Positions 5,269-8,608 of a stretch of DNA of 37,519 nt are shown here, one piece after another (position 1 is the stretch's first letter; each line of letters starts with the position of its first letter). Under the pieces are notes generated by a model that was not told the DNA's origin, did no database searches, and saw nothing but the letters and a program-made list of their open reading frames with translations. Position numbers and translations under genes: made by a program. The stretch lies in the NCBI GenBank assembly GCA_919902125.1, contig CAKKQM010000079.1, positions 1-37,519 of the forward strand, written 5' to 3'. Origin of the DNA: Actinomycetes bacterium. GTDB lineage: Bacteria > Actinomycetota > Actinomycetes > Nanopelagicales > Nanopelagicaceae.

Positions 5269-5275
5269 ACTCATA

Positions 5276-5281
5276 CTCCTT
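5276..5281 (-). promoter_or_regulatory. Ribosome binding site deciding the htrA start
   Basis: AAGGAG on the minus strand, 7 nt before ATG 5268 and only 1 nt before the upstream in-frame ATG 5274. The spacing supports the downstream ATG. Confidence 0.6.
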
Positions 5282-5352
5282 CAAAAATAAAGTCCTGACT
5301 CTAGTCAACTTTGCGATACCGAGAAATTCGTGAGAAAACCCTTGCAACTCTC

Positions 5353-7494: not shown

Positions 7495-7677
7495 TTATTT
7501 CTTGATTAGCAGCAATGCGGCAGCATGAAGTGCGTTGCCAAGATTTGAAGCCTCTTCCCCATTGAGTTCGACGACCAAACGTCCGCCGCCTTCTAAAGGG
7601 ATGCGCATGACCAAACTGCGCGCTTCCTTTGTGACCTCCATGGGTCCATCACCAGTTCGAGGTTTCATGGCTGCCAT
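7495..7677 (-). CDS. DUF3117 small conserved protein
   Basis: 60 aa beginning MAAMKPRTGDGPMEVTKEAR and continuing with a glycine-rich turn and RLVVELNGEEASNLGNAL. This matches the highly conserved actinobacterial DUF3117 family in both sequence and length; function unknown. No membrane segment or signal peptide is present. AAGGAG (7686-7691) lies 8 nt before the ATG. Its leader carries a 12-bp perfect palindrome and a direct repeat (see 7682-7728). It sits between the small sigma-like gene (137 nt upstream) and pepA (28 nt downstream). Confidence 0.93.
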   Translation of the reverse strand: MAAMKPRTGDGPMEVTKEARSLVMRIPLEGGGRLVVELNGEEASNLGNALHAAALLLIKK

Positions 7678-7728: not shown

Positions 7729-7814
7729 GTGACCCGCACTTGCTAGCGAATGAGACAGAAGTATCTCGCACTTACTGCCTAACCAGGAAATTGGGATTGG
7801 CAAGGGCAAAAATC

Positions 7815-8033
7815 CTACAAATTTAAGCGTGACGTGAGGCGAGCGCGACCTGCGGCGATGAGATGAATGACGGCTTGTTCAGGGACATGGAGCGTCGTGG
7901 CAATCTGCGCAGGTGAGAAGTTCTTCAGGTAATGCATGGTCAGAATAACCCGCTCCTCCTCTGGCAAACTGGCAAGCAGTTGCGCCAGAGTTTCTGCGGT
8001 CATAGTCGTAAGGCTACCTGTTGCGAGCGCCAT
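7815..8033 (-). CDS. Stand-alone sigma-70 region 4-like HTH protein
   Basis: 72 aa. Residues about 14-68 read as region 4 of an ECF-type sigma factor: LAQLLASLPEEERVILTMHY corresponds to the conserved 'LPxxxRxvlxLry' start, and FSPAQIATTLHVPEQAVIHL to the helix-turn-helix with the basic end AGRARLTSRL. No region 2 is present in any frame upstream, so it cannot act as an ordinary sigma factor. It may bind DNA or RNA polymerase as a regulator, or be a remnant. ATG 8033 is 9 nt after the LOG-family stop, suggesting one operon; ATG 8003 is an alternative start. The role is not known. Confidence 0.75.
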   Translation of the reverse strand: MALATGSLTTMTAETLAQLLASLPEEERVILTMHYLKNFSPAQIATTLHVPEQAVIHLIAAGRARLTSRLNL

Positions 8034-8579: not shown

Positions 8580-8585
8580 CTGCGA

Positions 8586-8591
8586 AGAATA
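8586..8591 (-). promoter_or_regulatory. Putative -10 box for leaderless LOG gene
   Basis: TATTCT on the minus strand, 6 nt before ATG 8579. It shares the 29-bp divergent region with the dapD -10 box, leaving 5 bp between the two hexamers. Confidence 0.5.
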
Positions 8592-8596
8592 GAGGC

Positions 8597-8602
8597 TACC
8601 CT
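8597..8602 (+). promoter_or_regulatory. Putative -10 box for leaderless dapD
   Basis: TACCCT, then 6 nt, then ATG 8609. The whole divergent region is 29 bp, so neither gene has space for a conventional leader, and both -35 regions would lie in or at the neighbour's coding start. Confidence 0.5.
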
Positions 8603-8608
8603 TGACCT

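Follow-up and report, generated by a model that had tools for sequence, protein, structure and literature searches.

In the ECF and group 3 sigma factors, domain 4 is a four-helix fold carried by a full protein that also possesses domain 2, as in SigF (8jzt), SigR (5fgm), SigE (2h27), SigW (6jhe), and WhiG (6pfj). The residues of SigW and of Escherichia coli sigma-E that contact the -35 element have been named (PMC6713349). The interface between sigma-32 and the flap-tip helix of RNA polymerase involves A221, L225, W244, L245, L278, and E283 (PMC10216364), and hydrophobic flap contacts are common to primary and ECF sigma factors (PMC6411747). Proteins that consist of a sigma 4 part, or that resemble one, are already known in kind. 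SigO of Bacillus subtilis is a separate protein carrying the sigma 4 part, while RsoA supplies the sigma 2 part (PMC8103513), and the UPF0122/YlxM proteins are free-standing with a sigma-4-like fold. In phage T4, gp33 is a separate protein that occupies the place of sigma 4 on the beta flap (PMC7408454), and AsiA is a separate sigma 4 mimic and anti-sigma factor, described in that source as having neither sequence homology nor structural similarity to sigma 4 except for its helix-turn-helix (HTH) (PMC6755090). Here we describe a small gene that encodes sigma region 4 and nothing else, found in the window, that is, the whole stretch of 37,519 nucleotides analyzed, which comes from a genome of 1.63 Mb in 110 contigs.

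The open reading frame at 7815–8033 (minus strand, 72 aa) is present in the window as first described. A profile search gave a strong match to Pfam Sigma70_r4_2 (PF08281) over residues 15–66, at 48.4 bits (E 7e-13; the curated cut-off is 25.7 bits), which makes the small protein the third best match to this profile in its own genome. Sigma domain 2 is absent from the same protein and nothing else is attached, so the original prediction of a stand-alone sigma-70 region 4 protein was borne out. The predicted length of 72 aa holds for the reading frame only, as relatives place the start at 8003. Because the residues before residue 11 are not conserved among relatives and a conserved hexamer lies 7 nt 5' of the ATG at 8003, the true gene is most likely 7815–8003 (minus strand, stop codon included), encoding 62 aa rather than 72; start and length agree across 36 aligned members of the family. 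The in-frame 5' extension at 8004–8033 (minus strand), unconserved among relatives, contains this hexamer and is probably untranslated.

The AlphaFold model of the small protein (mean pLDDT 88.6) has four helices, and its structural matches are mainly solved sigma region 4 domains. The top Foldseek match was SigF (E 6.7e-3, probability 1.00) and none reached E <= 0.001, as can happen with a domain of this size. In structure comparison, the model aligned with SigF at Z 10.4 (57 residues, rmsd 1.3 Å), with SigR region 4 at Z 10.3 (61 residues, rmsd 1.9 Å), and with the UPF0122 structures 1xsv at Z 9.8 (59 residues, rmsd 1.4 Å) and 1s7o at Z 8.8. The model superposes on region 4 structures over its whole length, and the sigma 4 fold is predicted to be retained.

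We searched the order in 201 genomes, which span 16 genera of a single family. Of these genomes, 196 matched at E <= 1e-6, six of the 196 only weakly (E 6e-9 to 3e-7); subtracting these by hand from the listing leaves 190 of 201 genomes, in 15 of 16 genera, with a strong match (threshold E <= 1e-21; all at E 8.1e-22 or better). Every strong match listed in this search lies in an open frame of 62–129 aa. The locus is absent from the one remaining genus, represented by a single genome, and in a further genus the copy has diverged to 39% identity with its position unchanged. The DUF3117 gene, the constant neighbor described below, was found in 0 of the 12 genomes without the small gene (11 of the order search and one other), though all 60 genomes examined from the class carry it. 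For this reason, the locus is probably missing from those 12 draft assemblies rather than lost. A MAG titled Streptomyces griseus, a title that is probably a mislabel, also has a copy, with 73% identity and an unchanged gene order.

In a search of the class (246 genomes, 22 of this order), no stand-alone copy was present among the matches listed outside the order. These matches, the best at E 3e-12, lie in long frames, the shortest of which (118 aa) starts near a contig end. Around DUF3117 in 28 outgroup loci, the flanks searched, which extend at most about 1.5 kb, contain no region 4 match. As far as these searches reach, the small protein is a feature of this order. A phage origin was considered and rejected: one scan of viral contigs contained no relative of the family, and PHROGs matches were weak and led to sigma factors and other transcription regulators.

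Size and position were checked across related genomes and are conserved, which fits the original prediction of a stand-alone region 4 protein. Among 190 pairs drawn from 20 sequences of the same genus, 81 gave dS under 3, and these had a median dN/dS of 0.14 and a maximum of 0.31. Codon position 2 is the least variable and position 3 the most variable. Two copies flagged as containing a stop have open frames from the conserved start, and no broken copy was seen among those read. These substitution patterns indicate that the small gene is under purifying selection and is a maintained gene; together with its near-universal retention (190/201), this speaks against the remnant of the original prediction.

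The surroundings of the gene are largely constant. In all 56 loci compared, a DUF3117 gene (PF11314, by profile match; 7495–7677, minus strand, in the window) lies 3' of the small gene on the same strand, 7–182 nt off. The usual upstream neighbor is a LOG-family gene (TIGR00730; 8043–8579, minus strand), which lies 5' of the small gene in 53 of 56 loci, with an SRPBCC-like gene intervening in 26 of the 56. LOG was not found upstream in three loci; the flanks of two of these (L043 and L087) may end too early, and in the third (L083) the small gene directly follows a divergent dapD with no LOG match between them. In one relative (L055, 2859–4827), LOG, an SRPBCC-like gene, a tagA-like glycosylase gene, and the region 4 gene stand in a row, unlike the window, where nothing lies between LOG and the region 4 gene. 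The dapD and LOG genes of the window are divergent, with 29 nt between their start codons (8580–8608); a TACCCT hexamer precedes dapD at the spacing of a leaderless promoter, and a TAGCCT on the LOG strand lies further from the LOG start. No Rfam family, riboswitch or other known RNA, and no tRNA was found in the window.

The hexamer before the small gene is a -10-like TAGCCT (8011–8016, minus strand). The pattern TANNNT occurs 6–8 nt 5' of a start codon in 53 of 56 loci, a count that is slightly generous as the test tries successive candidate starts, compared with 2.6% of arbitrary upstream positions. Across 36 loci, the information content of upstream columns peaks at the hexamer (1.29 bits at -12) and reaches at most 0.46 bits from -60 to -16, where no conserved -35 element was found. 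We infer that the small gene is transcribed from its own leaderless promoter. Other genes in the window carry hexamers of the same kind, so the leaderless hexamer is ordinary for this genome; the idea of a special -10 motif as a sign of a dedicated sigma factor or of autoregulation was dropped on this account.

A second promoter appears to serve DUF3117. The -10-like hexamer GATACT (7760–7765, minus strand) belongs to a motif found in 55 of 56 loci, and CAATTTC (7787–7793, minus strand), recognized by eye and unscored, is a possible -35 element. The highly conserved promoter-like block before DUF3117 (7757–7793, minus strand) consists of CAATTTC, then GAGATACTT, and does not depend on the sigma-like gene. 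Of the 28 outgroup loci, 20 have a related GATA[ACT]T motif no more than 220 nt from DUF3117, a figure without a chance control. The motif was rejected as the mark of a wider regulon, since the genome contained 8 matches with up to 2 mismatches versus 14 for the reversed control. Given its own leaderless promoter and the separate DUF3117 motif, the small gene seems to be its own transcription unit between LOG and DUF3117, and LOG is probably a separate unit. The operon with LOG that had been proposed is not supported, given the leaderless -10 hexamer in 53 of 56 loci and the locus in which the gene follows dapD without LOG.

In Mycobacterium, sigE and rseA adjoin htrA. In the window, the genes after DUF3117 are an aminopeptidase, a methyltransferase, and htrA, and the same order is found in relatives with flanks long enough, except that a few loci contain insertions. 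The gap at the methyltransferase-htrA junction (5275–5352) is only 78 nt, too short for sigE and rseA, so both are absent from this site. In this respect the original prediction was right, but the small gene, which it had placed there, sits three genes away. Origin from sigE was rejected, as the position does not fit. A midpoint-rooted tree built on 55 columns separated the family (55 sequences) from 24 other region 4 domains with supports of 0.79 and 0.96; the source was not placed. Descent from a full sigma gene is likely, since outside the order the family is best matched by ECF-type sigma domains that have a similar L-H-Y motif.

To describe the DNA-reading face, we counted residues in 55 members (L081, with the motif LS rather than LP, was left out though it is among the 56 loci) and in 22 region 4 domains of longer sigma proteins from the same order, three of which (L149, L162, and L163) align weakly (5.9–12.9 bits) but were kept. 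The position of the base-reading SigW residue R175 holds arginine in 1 of 55 members versus 20 of 22 comparison domains, that of the phosphate-binding R172 in 0 of 55 (V, I, L, or M in all) versus 15 of 22, and that of T168 holds threonine in 0 of 55 (A or S, with S in 15) versus 16 of 22. The base and phosphate contacts to the -35 element expected of a functional ECF sigma factor are thus missing at these three positions. Two others do not discriminate: K/R is found at the K170 position in 0 of 55 members versus 7 of 22 comparison domains, and at the K148 position in 0 of 55 versus 1 of 22. The base-reading T171 is partly kept, its position being S/T in 16 of 55 members and S in 15 of 22 comparison domains. 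Other features are compatible with DNA binding. The position of the backbone-contacting S154 is S/T in 52 of 55 members, position 53 (sigma-E R178) is K/R in all 55, a new K/R is found at position 43 in 44 of 55, and the net charge of the last helix is +1 to +3 in 54 of 55. Judged by this alignment, several ECF-type -35-contact residues have been lost and some DNA contacts may persist. In group 1 and group 3 sigma factors, other residues recognize the -35 element.

The same face also drifts. In 11 genomes, exposed recognition-helix positions of the small protein have a mean pairwise identity of 36%, versus 88% in the SigR-like sigma factor of the same genomes. Identity at positions 14–26 is 71% versus 74% (two sequences have a two-column gap within positions 19–22), and at positions 27–41 it is 47% versus 77%, so the drift extends beyond the DNA face. 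From these values, helix alpha7 is held, and the rest of the domain is freer than in the full-length sigma factor, the DNA-reading face most of all.

Positions 6, 25, 26, and 56 of the small protein correspond to L225, W244, L245, and L278 of sigma-32; this mapping used an RpoH sequence checked only by the fit of the six residue numbers and by the aligned range 219–284 of the sigma-32 chain. Position 6 is L/I/F/M in 54 of 55 members, position 25 is Y/F/L in 55, position 26 is L/V/I/M in 55, and position 56 is L/I/M in 55; the positions that correspond to A221 and E283 are not conserved. However, positions 6, 26, and 56 are also hydrophobic in the 22 comparison domains where aligned, as the fold requires, and the test therefore does not discriminate. 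Position 25 is acidic (D/E) in 18 of 22 comparison domains, so an aromatic residue here is not needed for flap binding. The residues at the flap positions are compatible with flap binding and say no more than that, and the suggestion of an RNA-polymerase-binding modulator stands to this extent and not beyond it.

The fold is kept, alpha7 is fixed, ECF-type DNA contacts are lost, and the DNA face drifts. Because of this combination, the reading that we favor, with a probability of about 0.42, is an orphan sigma domain 4 that may act by protein contact, most likely docked on the beta flap of RNA polymerase. The flap is proposed as the partner because it is the best-known partner of sigma 4 besides DNA and because T4 gp33 and AsiA take that seat. 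The 62-residue domain would be translated from a leaderless transcript of its own that does not depend on LOG or DUF3117, and would dock on the flap at the usual seat of sigma domain 4. There it would compete with or replace domain 4 of the sigma factor, and such a replacement may shift the need of the polymerase for a -35 element, as with gp33 and AsiA. The genome also has four WhiB matches and one RbpA match, and titration of WhiB is neither backed nor opposed by these results.

The most serious alternative, which we consider unlikely, is that the small protein is a DNA-binding regulator, probably dimeric and similar to UPF0122/YlxM or to a free LuxR-type domain, that reads DNA through an altered recognition helix. 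This alternative keeps its standing for two reasons, the HTH nature of the domain and the mildly basic character of its last helix; the lysine or arginine at positions 43 and 53 and the presence of 1xsv among the structural matches point the same way. Small residues make up 66% of five recognition-face positions versus 49% elsewhere at variable positions, which could allow helix packing, with the qualification that the five were picked after viewing the alignment. A regulator with a conserved target should, however, hold its exposed recognition positions, and these vary widely. Positions 46, 47, 50, and 51 are basic in only 0, 5, 9, and 2% of members, and no other positions of the last helix vary as much as 46 and 50. 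Summed over the 62 aligned positions, the net charge is zero or negative in 48 of 55 members. The DNA-binding role that had been suggested is thus weakened by the lost -35 contacts and the drifting face, while the HTH and the basic last helix persist.

A bolder form of the flap-docking reading deserves mention, although we regard it as doubtful. The small protein could be an order-wide, chromosomally encoded sigma 4 mimic that sits on the host flap and permits transcription from -10-only promoters, which would make it a cellular counterpart of T4 gp33. If this is true, a lineage with few sigma factors would tune its dependence on the -35 element through a free-standing 62-aa domain.

It is also conceivable, if improbable, that the protein releases a sigma factor by serving as a decoy for an anti-sigma factor, in the way of the sigma-like domain of PhyR. 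This domain is N-terminal in PhyR (PMC8103513). The genome of the window encodes a SigR-like ECF sigma factor followed by a 131-aa HxxxCxxC protein, probably a zinc anti-sigma factor (L066, 1917–2905; both labels by inspection). Yet no anti-sigma gene was seen adjoining the small gene. Moreover, class I anti-sigma domains coevolve with two sigma 4 residues, located in helices 4.2 and 4.4, which double as contacts to the -35 element (PMC7406223). The decoy is less likely for this reason, as contacts of this kind are largely lost or drifting in the small protein.

Still less probable is one half of a split sigma factor with a region 2 partner encoded elsewhere. Such factors exist, with SigO-RsoA of B. 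subtilis as the model (PMC8103513), and a diverged partner could escape the profile; a single region 2 match below the threshold (12 bits, E 0.41) lies in a 46-aa frame that has a stop near a contig end. Against this, the region 2 matches of the own genome that pass the cut-off sit in three frames of 228, 485, and 551 aa, and every frame among the region 2 matches listed for 61 genomes of the order is at least 175 aa. This split arrangement is very unlikely: neither the own genome nor those listed matches include a free region 2 that passes the cut-off, and the region 4 half would lack several residues required for contact with the -35 element. Finally, a functionless, decaying remnant of sigE or of another sigma gene is hardly credible: descent from a full sigma gene is likely, as the ECF-type matches with their L-H-Y motif indicate, but dN/dS is about 0.14, codon position 2 is the least variable, the gene is present in the examined genomes except those also lacking DUF3117, the promoter is conserved, and no broken copy was read.

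Sigma region 2 matches number two to seven per genome in 61 genomes of the order. Separately, we observed in the own genome an ECF-type sigma factor with a long C-terminal extension (contig 51, L067, 188–1618; 476 aa), with a 623-aa alanine- and threonine-rich protein encoded 3' of it; region 2 matches in frames as long as this one recur in the order. An order with few sigma factors nevertheless keeps the extra sigma fragment described here in nearly all genomes. If docking on RNA polymerase is true, the fragment would be an overlooked general transcription modulator in the order, and a single sigma domain could be freed from its sigma factor and reused by the cell, as in phage.

Our searches of open-licence PMC papers listed no description of an order-wide cellular sigma 4 protein without ECF-type -35-reading residues, and each of the closest systems differs from it. 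The small protein shares the profile, the four-helix fold, and the domain length of domain 4 of ECF and group 3 sigma factors, but here domain 4 stands alone and several ECF-type -35 contacts are lost. Like SigO, it is a separate protein carrying a sigma 4 part; RsoA, however, supplies the sigma 2 part in that system, and the small protein has no such partner over the cut-off. The UPF0122/YlxM proteins are likewise free-standing with a similar fold, yet their chains have about 106 residues and the small protein falls far below the cut-off of their Pfam profile (13.3 versus 22.7 bits). It also differs from AsiA, as it does match the sigma 4 profile. The likeness to T4 gp33, a phage protein, is one of working mode only; in both cases, a separate protein would hold the seat of sigma 4 on the flap.
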